Virus record (IMG/VR): IMGVR_UViG_3300042563_000961
Coordinates: 1 to 28,374 of that record
Reading direction: 5' to 3' (one strand)
Length of the DNA: 28,374 nt
DNA from: a virus
Shown here: piece by piece, positions 13,677 to 23,828 of the stretch
Layout: each line of letters begins with the position of its first letter
How positions within the stretch are numbered: position 1 is the stretch's first letter
Program-made: the position numbers and the translations under genes
Notes under the pieces: model-generated
The model's database searches: none
What the model was told of the DNA's origin: nothing
The model's input: the letters and a program-made list of their open reading frames with translations, nothing else

Positions 13677-14690
13677 ATGACCTTGTTTAAAAAGGTAGCA
13701 TGTTTTACAGACATACACTTTGGATTAAAATCAAATTCGGGAACGCATCTTAAAGACTGTGAAGAATTCGTTGACTGGTTTATTGCAGAAGCCCAGAAAG
13801 AAGGTTGTGAAACAGCAATCTTTCTTGGAGACTGGAGTCATAACCGTAACAGTCTTAATCTAATTACATTAGATACCAGTTTAAGGTGTTTAGAAAAACT
13901 AGGTGCTGCCTTTGAGCAGTTCTTTTGGTTTCCAGGTAATCACGATTTGTTCTATAAAGACAAACGTGACATCCATAGCTCTGCGTTCGGACGACATGTC
14001 CCCGGTGTAACCGTTGTCGAAGGTGTAACAACCATTGGTGAAGTCACGCTTGTTCCGTGGCTAGTGGGCGATGAGTGGAAATCAATGAACCAGCTTACCA
14101 GCAAATATGTATTTGGACACTTTGAACTGCCCCTATTCTATATGAATGCAATGGTGCAAATGCCGGATCACGGTGAACTCAAAGCTTCAGACTTTGGTAA
14201 ACCTGAGTATGTATTCAGCGGTCACTTCCATAAAAGACAAAACAAAGGCAATGTACACTACATTGGTAATGCATTTCCACATAATTTTGCAGACGTGTGG
14301 GATGACGATAGAGGAATGATGATACTAGAATGGGGTGGGGAGCCCGATTATCGCAACTGGCCAGATTGCCCTAAGTATAGAAACATCAAACTTAGTGATT
14401 TGTTAGATCGCAAAGACGAAGTTATGAAGTCCAAGATGCATTTTAAAGTTAATCTTGACATCGATATTAGTTACGAGGAAGCAAACTTCATTAAAGAAAC
14501 GTTTACTAACGAGTATGACATTCGAGAAATTAGTCTTATACAGGACAAGACCACACTAGACGGTACAATTGACGACAATCCAGATCAAAAATTTGAAAGT
14601 GTAGATCAAATTGTGTCCGAACAGTTAATCAATATTGAATCCGAACAGTTTGACAAAGCTGTATTACTGAATATCTATAACAATCTATGA
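13677..14690 (+). CDS. gp47: Recombination endonuclease subunit gp47 (Mre11/SbcD-like)
   Basis: 337 residues, matching T4 gp47 (339). The calcineurin-type metallophosphoesterase motifs appear in order: CFTDIHFG (Asp12, His14), FLGDWSHNR (Asp52), FPGNHD (Asn88, His89, Asp90), FGHFELP and FSGHFHKRQN. With gp46 it forms the Mre11-Rad50-like nuclease that resects double-strand ends to give 3' single strands for recombination-dependent replication. The start has a strong AGGAGATA ribosome site. The stop overlaps the gp46 start as ATGA, so the two subunits are probably translationally coupled. Confidence 0.95.
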   Translation: MTLFKKVACFTDIHFGLKSNSGTHLKDCEEFVDWFIAEAQKEGCETAIFLGDWSHNRNSLNLITLDTSLRCLEKLGAAFEQFFWFPGNHDLFYKDKRDIHSSAFGRHVPGVTVVEGVTTIGEVTLVPWLVGDEWKSMNQLTSKYVFGHFELPLFYMNAMVQMPDHGELKASDFGKPEYVFSGHFHKRQNKGNVHYIGNAFPHNFADVWDDDRGMMILEWGGEPDYRNWPDCPKYRNIKLSDLLDRKDEVMKSKMHFKVNLDIDISYEEANFIKETFTNEYDIREISLIQDKTTLDGTIDDNPDQKFESVDQIVSEQLINIESEQFDKAVLLNIYNNL

Positions 14691-16471
14691 GTTTTAAAAT
14701 AAAGAATATCACTGTGAAGAATTTCCTATCGGTAGGAAATCAAACACAGGCCGTTGATTTTGACAAAGAGCACCTCACGTTGGTACTAGGATCTAATTTA
14801 GATCTAGGTGGAGATGATACAGGGTCACGCAACGGCACAGGTAAGACTACTATGATCAATGCATTGAGTTATGCATTGTACGGTCAGGCATTAACTAATA
14901 TTAAAAAAGAAAACTTAATTAACAAGACTAACGGCAAAGGCATGTTAGTAACTGTTGAGTTTGAAAAAAATGCAGTAAAGTACAAGATCGAACGTGGTCG
15001 TAAACCTAATATATTAAAACTCTATGTCAATGATCAAGAATTAAAGACAGAGGATAAGGGCGAAGACGAAGCTCAAGGAGATAGCAGAGAAACACAAAAA
15101 GCTATTGAACAGATGCTAGGTATGTCACACACTATGTTTAAACACCTAGTGGCACTTAATACATATACTGAACCGTTCTTGTCAATGAAGGCTGCAGAAC
15201 AACGTGAAGTTATTGAACAACTGTTAGGCATTACTTTACTCTCTGAAAAAGCAGAAGTATTAAAATTACAAGTTAAAGAAAATAAAGATGCTATTCAAAT
15301 TGAAACAGTTAGGATTGAAGCTGTCAAGACTGCCAATGGAAATGTACAAAAAAGCATTGATAGTTTAAAAATTAAGAGTGCAGCTTGGGAATCTAAGAAA
15401 GAATCAGACATTGAAAACTTAGGTCGTGCAATGATGCGACTTGAAAATGTTGATATTGAGGTGGAGTTACTAGCACATGTCCAACTCAAACATTGGAATG
15501 AACACAATACTAAGGTACAAAACTTAAACAAACAAAAGGCCACATTAGAATCTGCTGTAGGTCAGGCTGAGAGAACCGTTAAGAAGTACGCAAAAGAATT
15601 AGAATCTCTAGGGAATAAAACATGTCATGCTTGTGAACAAGAGTTACATGATCATAAACATGAAGAAATGACCAAAACTGCAACCCAACATCTTGGGGAA
15701 TCCATAAAGTATTTTGACAAAGTGTCACATGACTTAAAAAAGATTGTAGATGAGATAGGAAACGATGATACATCACCTATGCCTAGAACATTTTATGATG
15801 CAGAAGCAGAAGCACTTGGACATAAAAACAATTTAACTAGCCTCGAGAATAGCCTAACTCTAAAAATTGATGAACAAAATCCCTATGAGGAACAGATTCA
15901 AGAATTAAATCGTACTGCTATTCAAGAAATTAATTGGGAAGTTGTTAACGAACTAATAAAACTTAAAGATCATCAAGAATTTCTTCACAAGTTGTTAACA
16001 AATAAAGATAGTTTTATCCGTAAGAAGATTATTGATCAAAACTTATTGTATCTAAACAAGCGCCTAAGCTATTACATTGACAAGCTAGGACTTCCACATC
16101 GTGTGGTTTTTCAAAATGATCTTACAGTTGAGATAACCCAGCTAGGACAAGATTTAGATTTTGATAACTTATCACGTGGAGAACGTAACAGGTTAATTCT
16201 AAGTATGAGCTTTGCATTTAGAGATGTTTGGGAAGGCTTATATCAAAGTATCAATTTGTTGTTTATTGACGAACTAGTAGATGCTGGCATGGATGCCGCA
16301 GGAGTAGAATCTGCTCTAGCGGTCTTGAAAAAAATGGCCAGGGAGAGAAATAAGAATATATACTTAATATCACACAAGGATGAACTAGTTGGTCGCGTAA
16401 ACAATGTTCTAAGAGTTATCAAAGAAAATGGATTTACCAGCTACTCAAACGATGTTGACTATGTCGAATGA
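14687..16471 (+). CDS. gp46: Recombination endonuclease subunit gp46 (Rad50/SbcC-like ATPase)
   Basis: 594 residues, close to T4 gp46 (560). Walker A is GSRNGTGKTT at residues 46-55. A long charged coiled-coil-like region is broken by the zinc-hook CHAC (Cys313, Cys316). The ABC signature is LSRGE at about 495-499, and Walker B is LLFIDELVDAG with Asp528-Glu529, followed by LISHKDEL with the switch His. It is the ATPase partner of gp47 in end processing. The gene starts by a four-base overlap with gp47, and a small ORF starts inside its last codons. Confidence 0.96.
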   Translation: MSFKIKNITVKNFLSVGNQTQAVDFDKEHLTLVLGSNLDLGGDDTGSRNGTGKTTMINALSYALYGQALTNIKKENLINKTNGKGMLVTVEFEKNAVKYKIERGRKPNILKLYVNDQELKTEDKGEDEAQGDSRETQKAIEQMLGMSHTMFKHLVALNTYTEPFLSMKAAEQREVIEQLLGITLLSEKAEVLKLQVKENKDAIQIETVRIEAVKTANGNVQKSIDSLKIKSAAWESKKESDIENLGRAMMRLENVDIEVELLAHVQLKHWNEHNTKVQNLNKQKATLESAVGQAERTVKKYAKELESLGNKTCHACEQELHDHKHEEMTKTATQHLGESIKYFDKVSHDLKKIVDEIGNDDTSPMPRTFYDAEAEALGHKNNLTSLENSLTLKIDEQNPYEEQIQELNRTAIQEINWEVVNELIKLKDHQEFLHKLLTNKDSFIRKKIIDQNLLYLNKRLSYYIDKLGLPHRVVFQNDLTVEITQLGQDLDFDNLSRGERNRLILSMSFAFRDVWEGLYQSINLLFIDELVDAGMDAAGVESALAVLKKMARERNKNIYLISHKDELVGRVNNVLRVIKENGFTSYSNDVDYVE

Positions 16472-16962: not shown

Positions 16963-17391
16963 ATGACTTGGTACCATAAAGGTTCTATAGTTACAGAACT
17001 GCCTGAAGATTGTGTGGGATTTGTTTATCTTATCTCATGCAATACTTCTGGCAGACTCTACATAGGCAAAAAGTTAGCAAAATTTAGTAAAACGACCTAC
17101 AAAACTGTAAAGTTAAAGAACGGCACAAAGAAGAAAAAGAAGATCAGAAGCAAAATTGACAGCGACTGGCAAGAATATTATGGCTCAAATATAGAACTTA
17201 ACAAAGACGTTGAGTTATTTGGCAAAGAAAATTTCACAAGAGAAATATTGCACTACTGTAAAAGCAAAGCAGAAACATCTTACATTGAGGCCCGCGAACA
17301 ATTCGACCGCAAAGTATTAGAATCCGATGAATACTATAACGGACAAATTTCTGTCCGTGTCCATGGCTCTCACATTAAATCCAAAATTTAA
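16963..17391 (+). CDS. SegE-like GIY-YIG homing endonuclease
   Basis: 142 residues. The GIY-YIG core is recognisable: CVGFVYLISC (residues 17-26) as the 'GIY' strand and GRLYIGKKLAKF (30-41) as the 'YIG' strand. These are followed by SDWQEYYGSN, FGKENFTREILHYC, then SYIEAREQFDRKVL with the conserved Glu, and EYYNGQISVRVHG. This order fits the T4 SegE type of free-standing homing endonuclease. There is no separate C-terminal DNA-binding domain; a Lys-rich insert (KLKNGTKKKKKIRSK) may take that role. It starts three bases after the preceding stop without a clear ribosome site, suggesting coupling. It lies directly before the 465-base structured gap, a likely point of insertion. Confidence 0.85.
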   Translation: MTWYHKGSIVTELPEDCVGFVYLISCNTSGRLYIGKKLAKFSKTTYKTVKLKNGTKKKKKIRSKIDSDWQEYYGSNIELNKDVELFGKENFTREILHYCKSKAETSYIEAREQFDRKVLESDEYYNGQISVRVHGSHIKSKI

Positions 17392-19238: not shown

Positions 19239-20384
19239 ATGAAAATTTCTCAACTCGTAGCAACAAAAACAAAAACACCATATTATGAAAGTGTTGCTAG
19301 TAGACTACCAAGAAAAATAAAATCTCAGCAGCACCTTTTAAATCTAGGGTATGTAATCACAGTCCAGGATTTAGGACTATCAAGAGCAAAAGCACTAGAT
19401 GAATCTTTTGCTGTTAATTTAATTAATTCATATCATAAGCAATGTTTAAACGAAGGAGTTGGTTCCTTCTTAGGAAAAGCTGCCGGTAACGTTGCAGGAG
19501 CAGTAGGTGCCGCAGGCCGTGGGATAAAAAATGCATGGGCTGATGCTAAAAAAGGATACTCTGATGCTAAAGCATCGTGGGATCCGGCTACCGGTGCTGC
19601 ACCGGCAGCACCCGGTACACCTCCAGCAGGTGGTACACCTCCGGCAGCAGGCGGAGCAGAACCGGCTACGCCACCAAGTACTTACGCAACACCAGCGGGA
19701 GGCGGCGACACTGGGCGCCCATATGTTGCTCAACCTGGTGCAGGCGCGGCACCTGAAGCACCTGCAACGGGCGCAGCACCTGAAGCACCAACTGCATCTG
19801 CACCGGCAGGTGATATAGGAAGTATAATGCAGGCTATTGATAAGTTAGATAAACCTACTAAGCAACAGCTAGCAGGCGAGTTAGAAAAGAGTATTAATGC
19901 CCCTGAGCCAGCAGCAGACAAACCAGCAGCTGGTAAACCAGGCGCAGCACCAGGTACACCTCCGGCAGCAGGCGGAGCAACACCTCCAGCAGCACCAGGT
20001 ACACCTCCGGCAGCAGGCGGAGCAACACCTCCGGCAGCACCAGGTGCAGCACCGGCAACAGAGCCACAAGGATCTATATACGATCCTGCAAAAGCTGCCG
20101 CTGATAAATTAGCAAAAAATCAAGCAGATGCTGACCAACGTAATGCTGACATAGAAAAAACAAAACAAGCTAATGCGGCTAAAGCACAACAAGATGCTGC
20201 CATTAAAGCAGCCGCAGATGCTGCCCGTGCTAAACCAGGATTCCAACAATCTCCAGAAGATAAATTGGCTATCAAAGCTGCTGAGCGAGCAGGCATTAGA
20301 GAATCTGAAGAAAAGAAAAAGAAACTTAAGAAGAAGAAAATAGTTGCAGAATTTAAGAGCAACTTTTTAGGAATGATGATTTAA
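19239..20384 (+). CDS. Unknown late protein with Pro/Ala/Gly repeat region
   Basis: 381 residues. A folded head of about 75 residues (MKISQLVATKTKTPYYESVA, QQHLLNLGYVITVQDLGLSR, FAVNLINSYHKQCLNEG) is followed by a Gly/Ala helix, then roughly residues 115-290 of Ala/Pro/Gly/Thr-rich low complexity interrupted by a short helix (SIMQAIDKLDKPTKQQLAGELEK is its neighbourhood). A charged Lys/Ala-rich helix (residues ~300-345) and a basic end (EKKKKLKKKK) finish it. It starts 11 bases after the previous stop behind GGAACT and shares its late transcript. The layout of head, extended linker and coiled tail suggests a flexible virion or assembly protein; no enzyme motif is seen. Its stop codon overlaps the stop of the convergent minus-strand ORF. 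Confidence 0.7.
   Translation: MKISQLVATKTKTPYYESVASRLPRKIKSQQHLLNLGYVITVQDLGLSRAKALDESFAVNLINSYHKQCLNEGVGSFLGKAAGNVAGAVGAAGRGIKNAWADAKKGYSDAKASWDPATGAAPAAPGTPPAGGTPPAAGGAEPATPPSTYATPAGGGDTGRPYVAQPGAGAAPEAPATGAAPEAPTASAPAGDIGSIMQAIDKLDKPTKQQLAGELEKSINAPEPAADKPAAGKPGAAPGTPPAAGGATPPAAPGTPPAAGGATPPAAPGAAPATEPQGSIYDPAKAAADKLAKNQADADQRNADIEKTKQANAAKAQQDAAIKAAADAARAKPGFQQSPEDKLAIKAAERAGIRESEEKKKKLKKKKIVAEFKSNFLGMMI
19953..20042 (+). repeat. Two 45-bp tandem repeats (15-residue Pro/Ala unit)
   Basis: Two head-to-tail copies of a 45-base unit (19953-19997, 19998-20042) encode GTPPAAGGATPPAAP twice; they differ at the CCA/CCG codon near the unit's end. A partial, diverged copy lies near 19614-19665. 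The unit keeps the reading frame, so copy number can change without breaking the protein. Confidence 0.85.
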
Positions 20385-20608
20385 AAGAACGGTAATCCTG
20401 AATCTTTAGTAGCCTTAAGATTGTCTTCAATAATATTTGTAATACAAGTTCTATCTTCAGGCGTTAATAAAAATGCTTCAGAGAATGATAGTCCACCTCG
20501 CATATACCAAGTTAGTCTAAACAATTCTTCGCGCATGGCTTTTGTATCATTTTCATAATCTCTTACAACTTTGTTTATTCCATCAAAGTCGAGATACAAA
20601 AGCCTCAT
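20381..20608 (-). CDS. -1 frame extension of the gp26-like protein (probable frameshift product)
   Basis: 75 codons after an ATG that overlaps the upstream stop as ATGA (MRLLYLDFDGINKVVRDYEN ... TPEDRTCITNIIEDNLKAT). The sequence has a normal soluble helical composition. No Shine-Dalgarno site precedes the ATG; the upstream bases are ACTTTTTTCGT. It lies in the -1 frame of the gp26-like gene. A slip on the T_TTT_TTC heptamer (20617-20611) would join residue 289 of the gp26-like protein through one Arg codon (CGT) to these 75 residues, giving a 365-residue fusion. Such G/GT-type fusions act as tape measure chaperones in lambda and many other tailed phages. Independent start by coupling at ATGA is the alternative. 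The stop overlaps that of the convergent gene at 20384. Confidence 0.75.
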   Translation of the reverse strand: MRLLYLDFDGINKVVRDYENDTKAMREELFRLTWYMRGGLSFSEAFLLTPEDRTCITNIIEDNLKATKDSGLPFF

Positions 20609-20617
20609 ACGAAAAAA
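20537..20617 (-). promoter_or_regulatory. Programmed -1 ribosomal frameshift signal
   Basis: On the minus strand, the heptamer T TTT TTC (20617-20611) is in the zero frame (ACT TTT TTC GTA TGA). After a 6-base spacer comes a perfect 12-bp stem: GGCTTTTGTATC at 20604-20593 pairs with GATACAAAAGCC at 20548-20537. The 44-base loop holds a second stem, CGACTTTG (20591-20584) with CAAAGTTG (20573-20566), 8 bp with one G-U pair. Heptamer, spacer length and structured downstream RNA are the three standard elements of -1 frameshifting, and the shift leads into the open 75-codon frame. Confidence 0.75.
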
Positions 20618-21477
20618 GTTGATGGATCAAACACTAGTGGAACTTCGATAAATTCTGTAGTAATACCCCTAGCTCGCATTGCTTCAGTAACTGGAACCTG
20701 TATTGGTTTAATTGCATTAATATCTTTTAATCGATCAAGATGATTTTGAATTACGTTAAAAATGTCTTTGTCAACATTTTCAATAAACTCTTTAATATGT
20801 TTAGGATTGTCAGTGGGTCCTTGACTTGAATCAATTCTAAATATGCTATGTTCGACTATTCCAATGGTTACTTCACTTAATTTGTTAAAACTTTCTTTAA
20901 ATGCCCGTATCTTTTCTTCATCACTGGCTGTATTGTTGTTGGCAATCTGTAACATTTTTTGTGTTTCAAATGTACTTACTGCACTGGTACTAATTCGTTT
21001 ATAGTCCATAGGACGAACATATACAGTTAAATCTTCGTTAATTGGAACAACTGGATCCCAGGTAATGTTGGCCATTAAACTGTCCATTACATTTCGAAGA
21101 TCTATTGTATATTCCATCTCATCTTCATCGTTTAATGTAATAGGTGTAACCATTTTTTCACCGTAGGTTGCAAGTCTAATACCAATAAGAATAACATCTA
21201 AATCAATGCTAGGAACATTCCATGCATTTTTAACATGAGGTATACAATGTTGGATCACATCAACAACTGCCTGTCCGCTCATTACGGCATCGGGAACTTT
21301 TAACATAAGTTCATCTTTAGCAGTCATTGAGTAAACTGGATATTCTCCTGTTTCGGAAGCAGCCAGTGAACCAGCAGGCCAGAATTCGCCCTGACTCGGT
21401 AATCGAATATAGATTTTTGGTTGCCTCATGAATGAAGCTAACGGGTTTGGCTGAATATTTGGTACTGATGTGACCAT
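20605..21477 (-). CDS. gp26: gp26-like baseplate hub/tail assembly chaperone
   Basis: 290 residues from MVTSVPNIQPNPLASFMRQP. The ATG at 21477 was chosen over one at 21516 because TCGGAGAT precedes it and the conserved region begins soon after: FMRQPKIYIRLPSQGEFWPAGSL, then YPVYSMTAKDELMLKVPDAVMSG, then VIQHCIPHVKNAWNVPSIDLDVILIGIRLATYG. From memory this matches the T4 baseplate hub gp26 family found in aquatic T4-like phages. The zinc-type CxxC seen in some members between the helices is absent here. The C-terminal half is helical (FKESFNKLSEVTIGIVEHS). It faces the tape measure gene across a 74-base divergent promoter region and ends in a -1 frameshift signal, which suggests a tape-measure chaperone role. 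Confidence 0.8.
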   Translation of the reverse strand: MVTSVPNIQPNPLASFMRQPKIYIRLPSQGEFWPAGSLAASETGEYPVYSMTAKDELMLKVPDAVMSGQAVVDVIQHCIPHVKNAWNVPSIDLDVILIGIRLATYGEKMVTPITLNDEDEMEYTIDLRNVMDSLMANITWDPVVPINEDLTVYVRPMDYKRISTSAVSTFETQKMLQIANNNTASDEEKIRAFKESFNKLSEVTIGIVEHSIFRIDSSQGPTDNPKHIKEFIENVDKDIFNVIQNHLDRLKDINAIKPIQVPVTEAMRARGITTEFIEVPLVFDPSTFFV

Positions 21478-21551: not shown

Positions 21552-23828
21552 ATGGCAGACGTAACTGGCTCAATAGGCAACGAATACGTAGAACTGAATA
21601 ACGCGGCAACAGAAGCTACGTTAAAACTTCTACTTGCCGCCGTCACAGGCGGAAACGCCAAAGCGAATATCAACAGCATTGGTACTAAGGCAGGTATAGA
21701 TCCGGCCACAGTGGCCAAAGTCAACGACGGTCTTAAAAATTCAGCCGTAGCTGGTGAAAAAAGTGCAGGAGCATTTAATAAAGTTGCAGCGGGTGGTACT
21801 AGTGCAGCACAAGGACTTGATAGATTAAGTACTTCTCTATCACCATTAATTGATAAACTTTTAGCGGGTACAGCACAGGCCAGCGATGCGTTTGGTGCAT
21901 TAGAAAGACTTCCAGGCGTACTTGGTGTAGTTATGGGACTATTTGGTAAAGTAGCTACATATCAACAAGATAACGTAAAAACGTATCAGCAGATAACACA
22001 AGTAGGTGCAAATTTTGGAGGCAGCCTTACTGACCTTAGACAAGCGGCACTGAACACCTACATGAGTCTAACTGAGTTTGGAACGTTTGTAAAATCAAAC
22101 GGAGAAGCACTTGCAAGAATGGGCGGAAGTGTTGATGGCGGCACTCGAGCATTTGTACGGCTAAGCAAAGATTTAATTAGCAGTGAAATAGGTACAAATC
22201 TTATGGCGCTAGGATACAGTACTGAGCAAATTAACAGTACTATGGCAACCTACATTGCAAGCACCGGTGGTAGAACTCGTCAAGAAATGCAGAATACACA
22301 GGCGCTTGCTGCCTCTACTGCTGCGTATATGACTGAGCTAGATGCATTAACTCAGTTTACAGGCGTAAGTAAAGACAAACTTGCAGAAGAAGGTAAAAAG
22401 GCAGCACAAAACGAAGCATTCCAACGTAAACTTTCTACAATGGACGAAGCTGAACGTGCAAAAACTAAAGCAGCATATGACAAAGCAGCAGCCAGCGGTA
22501 TTGCTGGTGCAACTGATTTAGTAATGTCAACTGCATTAGGACTTCCACCTGTTACAAAAGCAGCTCAAACTTTACAAGGTGTAGCCCCTGGAGTAGCAGC
22601 AGGTTTTAACGCAATGACAAAAACTGCCATGGATCAAACCAAGACCATGAAAGATGTTAACTCAGAATACGGAAAAACACTGTTAGCAGGCAAGGCAGCA
22701 AGTCAGCAATTTGGTCAAACAGGTGATGCTATTGCAACCATGGGCGGAGAATACGGTCAGGTAATGAATGGACTTATCGGTGCTGAAAACAAGTTACGGA
22801 CACAAGGTATTGCTGACGAAAAAGATTATGACAAGCGTCAAGAAGAAATAAGACTAAACAGAATAAAACAGGAGAAGTCTCAAGCAGCAGTAATGGCTGA
22901 AACTGATAAAGCCTTTAAAGAAATAGGGCAATCAACTAACGATTTATTAAGTCCTGCTATTAAATGGGCTACAGAAATGATAGCAACTATGTCTAAAGGA
23001 CTAGCATTTCTTATAACAGGCTTTACTGAATTAAATTTAGGTGCAAAATTATTAGTTGCAGGTATTGCAGCTTTAGTATTATGGAAAAGCAAAGAACTAA
23101 TAGCAGAAAAACTGGCAATGGCCAAAGATAAAGCATCAGATGCAATTTCAAAAGCTAAAGGAATGGTTCCTGGCAGTTCACCTGCAACTGCATTGTGGGT
23201 TAGAATAGTTGGTAAAGGAATGGTTGGCGCTGCCGCCGGCGCTGAAGATATACTAGACAAGAAAGATAAAAATAAACCAGACACTACTAAACCAAGCACT
23301 GAGGGCGGCGGCAAGGCAAGTAAACTAGGTAAACTAGCCAATGCAGCTAAAGGCGGTATTGGTAGTCTAGCAGGCGGACTGGTATTAGATTATGCGGCAG
23401 ACAAAGCCCGAGAAAGCGGAAACGAAAAAACTGCCGCAGGACTCGATATAGGTAGCTCTGCACTATCCGGTGCTGGTATGGGTGCAATGATGGGCAGTAT
23501 TGTTCCTGGAGTAGGTACAGTAATTGGCGGCGCAGTAGGCGGATTAGTTGGCGGCGCTTATGGTGCTTATCAAAATTGGGGCGGTCTAACTGGTAAAAAA
23601 CCCATGGCTGATGGTGGTATTGTTGATAGTCCAACAAATGCACTTGTTGGTGAAGCTGGCCCGGAGATAGTCTCGCCGATCAAATACTTTGAAAATTTAC
23701 AGACCGAGCTAGTAACGTTAAATAAACAAACAGTAGAAATGCTGAGATTTCTGAAAGAAACCGCAGAACAAACTAGAAATACTGCGGAAGCTACCAAAGG
23801 GTTAAGCGGAGATCTTTTTAAATTTTAA
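21552..23828 (+). CDS. Tail tape measure protein (gp29 counterpart)
   Basis: 758 residues. The N-terminal two thirds are Ala/Gly-rich long helices with few aromatics (AALNTYMSLTEFGTFVKSNG, MNTQ-type repeats, AEEGKKAAQNEAFQRKLSTM). One hydrophobic segment lies at about residues 495-515 (AKLLVAGIAALVLWKSKE), followed by a glycine-zipper stretch (GMGAMMGSIVPGVGTVIGGA onward). The end carries the tape-measure signature ADGGIVDSPTNALVGEAGPE followed by IVSPI, then a heptad helix (LVTLNKQTVEMLRFLKETAE). Tape measures fix tail length and leave the tail ahead of DNA. T4 gp29 is 590 residues; at about 0.15 nm per residue this would suggest a tail near 110 nm (rule-of-thumb inference). Position between the gp26-like chaperone and portal fits. 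The start has no strong Shine-Dalgarno site. Confidence 0.85.
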   Translation: MADVTGSIGNEYVELNNAATEATLKLLLAAVTGGNAKANINSIGTKAGIDPATVAKVNDGLKNSAVAGEKSAGAFNKVAAGGTSAAQGLDRLSTSLSPLIDKLLAGTAQASDAFGALERLPGVLGVVMGLFGKVATYQQDNVKTYQQITQVGANFGGSLTDLRQAALNTYMSLTEFGTFVKSNGEALARMGGSVDGGTRAFVRLSKDLISSEIGTNLMALGYSTEQINSTMATYIASTGGRTRQEMQNTQALAASTAAYMTELDALTQFTGVSKDKLAEEGKKAAQNEAFQRKLSTMDEAERAKTKAAYDKAAASGIAGATDLVMSTALGLPPVTKAAQTLQGVAPGVAAGFNAMTKTAMDQTKTMKDVNSEYGKTLLAGKAASQQFGQTGDAIATMGGEYGQVMNGLIGAENKLRTQGIADEKDYDKRQEEIRLNRIKQEKSQAAVMAETDKAFKEIGQSTNDLLSPAIKWATEMIATMSKGLAFLITGFTELNLGAKLLVAGIAALVLWKSKELIAEKLAMAKDKASDAISKAKGMVPGSSPATALWVRIVGKGMVGAAAGAEDILDKKDKNKPDTTKPSTEGGGKASKLGKLANAAKGGIGSLAGGLVLDYAADKARESGNEKTAAGLDIGSSALSGAGMGAMMGSIVPGVGTVIGGAVGGLVGGAYGAYQNWGGLTGKKPMADGGIVDSPTNALVGEAGPEIVSPIKYFENLQTELVTLNKQTVEMLRFLKETAEQTRNTAEATKGLSGDLFKF

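Follow-up and report, generated by a model that had tools for sequence, protein, structure and literature searches.

Programmed -1 ribosomal frameshifting in a T4-like gp26 gene is predicted to yield the short and long forms of a tail assembly chaperone

The stretch of DNA analysed here (the window) comprises 28374 bases of a virus record. Its minus strand carries a gene for a 290-aa gp26-like protein (20605..21477; ATG start, GGAG at 21490-21487), which represents the putative short form, TAC-N, of a tail assembly chaperone (TAC). This protein was found to match PF12322 (T4_baseplate; E 8.8e-9, above the gathering score) and phrog_150 (baseplate hub; E 1.7e-11), membership of which is a hallmark of the TAC-N proteins of T4-like phages. 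When the gp26 profile was compared by hhalign with individual T4 sequences, the signal was too weak for use. AF2 models were obtained for TAC-N (pLDDT 79) and for the C-terminal domain described below, TAC-C (helical, mean pLDDT 84), and a fold search of the PDB with both models returned no significant match. Distant gp26 relatives (L082-L090) and T4 gp26/gp51 possess Cys pairs that resemble a zinc ribbon (CPxC ... CxxxxC, A4 consensus); in the gp26-like protein of the window lineage these pairs are replaced (ITLNDEDEMEY).

A gene for a 758-aa tape measure protein (21552..23828, plus strand) is divergent from the gp26-like gene, and proximity to such a gene is a further hallmark of T4-like TACs. 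Its product matches phrog_794 (tail length tape measure; E 1.9e-5) and phrog_10093 (E 6e-5), and contains the C-terminal motif ADGGIVDSP..VGEAGPE, of a type that is typical of tape measures. A divergent gene for a virion structural protein is located at the same place in RaK2, CBB, BF, PHA46, and XaC1, and that of RaK2 was noted as tape-measure-like. The other neighbours of the gp26-like gene encode a portal and a prohead protease, both of T4 type, as well as a wedge protein (gp25) and a spike protein that is gp5-like. Among named phages, the portal has its best relatives in jumbo phages (51% in Phosso, 49% in the PA5oct group), so that the window is, judging by sequence, probably a fragment of a T4-like jumbo phage outside culture.

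The gp26-like gene ends, in its zero frame on the minus strand, with GAT CCA TCA ACT TTT TTC GTA TGA. This reading contains the heptamer T_TTT_TTC (20611..20617), which has the X_XXY_YYZ form of a programmed -1 ribosomal frameshift site, followed by the 6-nt spacer GTATGA (20605..20610) that includes the zero-frame stop TGA (20607-20605). TTTTTTC occurs nine times on the minus strand of the window and four times on its plus strand. The -1 frame (TAC-C; 20381..20611, minus strand) is open from CGT (20611-20609) up to its stop (20383-20381), corresponding to 76 codons from CGT or 75 from an ATG at 20608. The 76-aa product made after a shift would read RMRLLYLDF...LPFF. A preliminary description of this locus had proposed the zero-frame heptamer with its 6-base spacer ahead of a stem, a 75-codon open -1 frame, a 290-aa zero-frame product, and a 365-aa fusion; all of these, with their coordinates, were recovered from the sequence. 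TAC-C gave no useful match to Pfam and PHROGs HMMs, the phrog_150 match of the 365-aa fusion did not extend into its C-terminal part, and hhalign produced a weak alignment of TAC-C to the C-terminal domain of gp51 (phrog_634; E 8.5e-4, probability 24%, 33 columns). The -1 ORF is convergent with a plus-strand gene for a 381-aa protein without family match (19239-20384), which it overlaps by 4 bases at 20381-20384.

Directly after the spacer lies the 5' arm of a stem, GGCTTTTGTATC (20593..20604, minus strand), which is perfectly complementary over 12 bp to the 3' arm, GATACAAAAGCC (20537..20548, minus strand), across a 44-nt loop, in agreement with the inverted repeat proposed earlier. It is the sole perfect 12-bp inverted repeat with a loop of up to 60 nt in the 28-kb window, for which 0.05 were expected from Markov sequences. 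The 44-nt loop also contains the proposed inner 8-bp hairpin (20566..20591, minus strand), formed by CGACTTTG (20591-20584) and CAAAGTTG (20573-20566) with one G-U pair. This hairpin was rejected as a defining part of the signal, as its pairing and position are not conserved and most relatives do not keep it in place.

Viral contigs were scanned three times for relatives; the gp26 part served as query in two of these scans, and the product of the -1 frame by itself in the third. Together with nine cultured phages, the loci obtained collapse to 159 distinct -1 ORFs. The in-frame heptamer was present in 79/79 loci of the first scan and in all loci of the two further scans that cover the site; four loci that were not caught automatically were inspected, of which three possess TTTTTTC and one is truncated before the site. 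The preliminary description had predicted conservation of the heptamer, of the frame order, and of the stem, with compensatory changes in the latter, and reduced synonymous change, and this pattern was observed. The heptamer codons are TTT followed by TTC in 156/156 sequences, without any synonymous change, whereas neighbouring codons vary in this respect (Phe at codon -5, TTT in 119 and TTC in 20; Asp, GAT in 103 and GAC in 31). The base ahead of TTT is always T, though the encoded residue varies, and the C that follows the six T never varies in the viral-contig set, even though a T there would preserve Phe. The zero-frame stop is found one codon past the heptamer in 124/156 sequences, four codons past it in 27, and 3, 6, or 11 codons past it in the rest.

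The -1 ORF is open in all relatives, and its protein is conserved among them. It measures 72-79 codons from the heptamer, with 78 codons in 144/156 distinct sequences. Its dN/dS value of 0.115 compares with 1.06 and 1.98 in the other two readings, and codon comparisons of this kind indicate that purifying selection acts on the -1 frame.

The stem starts 6 nt after the heptamer, within the range of 5-9 nt expected for a stimulatory structure. The first eight pairs form in all of the 57 nearest distinct sequences, in which a mean of 11.5/12 pairs was found at the true offset, compared to at most about 8 at other offsets, and the folding energy had a mean z of -5.0 relative to codon-shuffled sequence. 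Among 110 distinct sequences, the two arms covary with a score of 0.221, as compared to 0.055-0.088 for slid partners, and two-sided changes were counted in 116 cells versus 43 in shuffles. Examples of such compensatory changes are GTATC/GATAC, GAATC/GATTC, GATTC/GAATC, and ATATC/GATAT.

The arrangement extends far beyond the close relatives of the window. The heptamer and the frame order recur in the jumbo phages Phosso, MIJ3, RaK2, and Atu_ph07. In all, nine distant cultured jumbo phages, whose gp26 is 24-32% identical, have the heptamer ahead of an open -1 frame, and TTTTTTC followed by an open -1 frame was also found in the cyanophages S-PM2, P-SSM5, and S-RIM14, in Stenotrophomonas phage YB07, Aeromonas phage 65, and Vibrio phage PVA8. 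Some T4-like groups differ at the slippery site: phiM12 has TTTTTTTA with a T7 run at the end of gp26 (L256, 1364-1405), and Vibrio phage D494, which carries CTT TTC instead of TTT TTC, lacks a perfect heptamer (L261, 1382-1423); the -1 frame is open in both. In the cyanophages S-PM2 and P-SSM5 the annotation of the -1 product is gp51. The -1 ORF of S-PM2 matches phrog_634, and the gene order in this phage is gp26, gp51, and then a gene for a 1167-aa protein with tape-measure matches. Public records often present the -1 part as gp51 or as a hypothetical gene of its own, or omit it, so that these annotations can be corrected; in L083, L086, L087, and other public records, for example, the -1 domain is unannotated or appears as a separate hypothetical protein after gp26.

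We therefore favour the reading that a programmed -1 frameshift in a T4-like gp26 gene yields the two tail assembly chaperone forms TAC-N and TAC-NC, to which we assign a probability of about 0.93. As judged from the sequences, programmed -1 ribosomal frameshifting at the gp26-like gene is close to certain, and the short and long gp26 proteins are very probably a tail assembly chaperone pair. The site, the frame, and their conservation, the covariation, the selection, and the family are direct observations, from which we infer slippage in vivo, its efficiency, and the chaperone role. Most ribosomes would finish gp26 at 290 aa. Others would shift at T_TTT_TTC, where both tRNA-Phe, one in the P site and one in the A site, would slip back by one base and re-pair with TTT and TTT, aided by the stem that starts 6 nt downstream. 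These ribosomes would bypass the stop and add 76 residues, and the resulting fusion (...STFF-RMRLL...) would have 365 aa. The two products would then act as TAC-N and TAC-NC, as in the lambda gpG/gpGT pair, which has counterparts in P2 and Mu, with both forms binding the protein encoded by the divergent tape measure gene at 21552 and the C-terminal domain recruiting tube subunits. The earlier suggestion of a pair of the G/GT type is supported by the gp26 family membership, by the order of gp26, gp51, and tape measure genes in S-PM2, and by T4 gp51, a gp26-like protein with an extra C-terminal domain; the chaperone activity as such is deduced. The lambda heptamer is G_GGA_AAG and differs from the T_TTT_TTC of the window.

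An alternative that accepts the frameshift is that the two products are structural baseplate hub proteins instead of tape-measure chaperones, in line with the baseplate hub label carried by T4 gp26 and phrog_150. We consider this unlikely, given that gp26/gp51 directly precede the large tape-measure-like gene in S-PM2, that the short/long architecture corresponds to that of lambda G/GT, and that these genes were assigned as TACs by Vladimirov et al. 2022, as cited in PMC10885494. Other alternatives dispense with ribosomal slippage. In the window, an ATG that was omitted from the preliminary description overlaps the stop of the gp26-like gene (ATGA), so that translational coupling needed to be excluded, in which ribosomes that end at TGA would restart at this ATG and produce a separate 75-aa protein. 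The same overlap is seen in a minority of relatives, but most of them have a TAA stop and no ATG at the overlap, carrying GTATAAGG, GTCTAAGG, and similar junctions, and the small ORF thus generally lacks a start codon there. Coupling can be excluded as a general explanation because these relatives, with NNNTAAGG and no start codon, nevertheless keep the heptamer, the stem, and the ORF. Nor would it account for the heptamer, for the stem, or for the fact that TTT TTC never changes, and 32/156 distinct sequences have their zero-frame stop 3-11 codons further downstream; we regard coupling as very improbable. Transcriptional slippage on the T6 run, by which an added base would give mixed mRNAs that encode the same fusion, could draw on the presence of a T-run (T7 in phiM12), but it is hardly credible, as six T are short for slippage by RNA polymerase, the C next to T6 shows no change in the viral-contig set though TTT would keep Phe, and the register of the heptamer to the codons, the spacing of 6 nt, and the covariation of the stem fit slippage by the ribosome.

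A paper of 2016 (PMC5009743) had already described such frameshifting as widely conserved among long-tailed phages, with T4 as an exception. The TAC genes of T4-like phages were identified by Vladimirov, Gautam and Davidson (Virology 2022, 566:9-15), as cited in PMC12846349 and PMC10885494; the former refers to that study for polyT frameshift signals in T4-like TAC-N genes and the latter for the use of separate short and fused genes by some T4-like phages. The notion that such a frameshift was undescribed for T4-type gp26 fails in view of the 2022 study as cited in these two papers. Because both the 2016 and the 2022 work precede ours, the locus is not new in kind: going by the citing papers, a chaperone made by frameshifting has been known from T4-like phages since 2022, and the locus is a well-supported further member. 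It resembles the T4-like TAC-N/TAC-NC of Vladimirov et al. 2022, as they are cited, in its PF12322 family and in the poly-T slippery site in the TAC-N gene, and T_TTT_TTC is common to the window and other TAC members from cyanophages and jumbo phages. Unlike the T4-like TACs described in the citing papers, the window belongs to an uncultivated jumbo-type lineage, its tape measure gene is divergent and not downstream, and its lineage possesses a covarying stem of 12-18 bp with a usually long loop. For the TAC locus of Vandenendeviridae and Andersonviridae, PMC12846349 likewise reports that the TAC-N gene has a T-rich motif at which a -1 shift is conserved; the motif there is GTTTTT, and these are phage families other than that of the window. 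The word frameshift was absent from the papers that were found on phages of the RaK2, PA5oct, and Atu_ph07 type.

T4 gp26 and gp51 both match PF12322/phrog_150, as does the TAC-N of the window. Most of T4 gp51 matches the gp26 family and its C terminus matches phrog_634, the phrog of the S-PM2 -1 product, and for this reason gp51 looks, from its sequence, like a long form that is already fused and has a gene of its own. Genes 26 and 51 are separate in T4, unlike the arrangement in the window, and TTTTTTC was absent from T4 gene 26. The Vladimirov abstract reportedly states that frameshifting is conserved in several T4-like groups and that T4 uses genes 26 and 51, both of which that work is reported to name. 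The large body of comparative evidence indicates that T4-like phages outside the T4 group commonly have a short and a long gp26 made by frameshifting, and the separate genes 26 and 51 of T4 look like the exception.

The 5' arm of the stem begins about 6 nt past the heptamer in most relatives. In distant lineages it stays 6 nt after the heptamer and its best partner lies elsewhere in the -1 ORF, as in L122, L126, L129, L141, L148, L217, L233, L242, L244, and L245, with loops of about 8 to 62 nt (8 in L141, with arms GGATCTTATCT/AGATAAGATCC; 28 in L126; 43 in L233; 62 in L148). This turnover was detected by a best-stem search that gave stems of at least 12 bp in 74/159 sequences; its null distribution peaks at 6 bp, so that single cases with short stems can be due to chance. 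The stimulator is not universal, since the RaK2-type phages of enterobacteria have kept the heptamer and lack the long stem (z about 0). A tentative explanation, which we hold to be possible but doubtful, is that the stimulator is a relocating stem, with a 3' arm that has been re-created at several places of the -1 ORF under double coding constraint. No description of a covarying, relocating stem was found in the literature, in which Vladimirov et al. 2022 was represented by the papers citing it. The covarying stem provides a natural series for testing how stimulators work; if it does relocate, it could model the evolutionary turnover of frameshift stimulators and possibly tunes the chaperone ratio to tail length.

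Elsewhere in the window, a gene for a SegE-type GIY-YIG endonuclease (16963-17391; PF19835, E 1.2e-31) adjoins SbcC/SbcD-like genes at 13677-16471.
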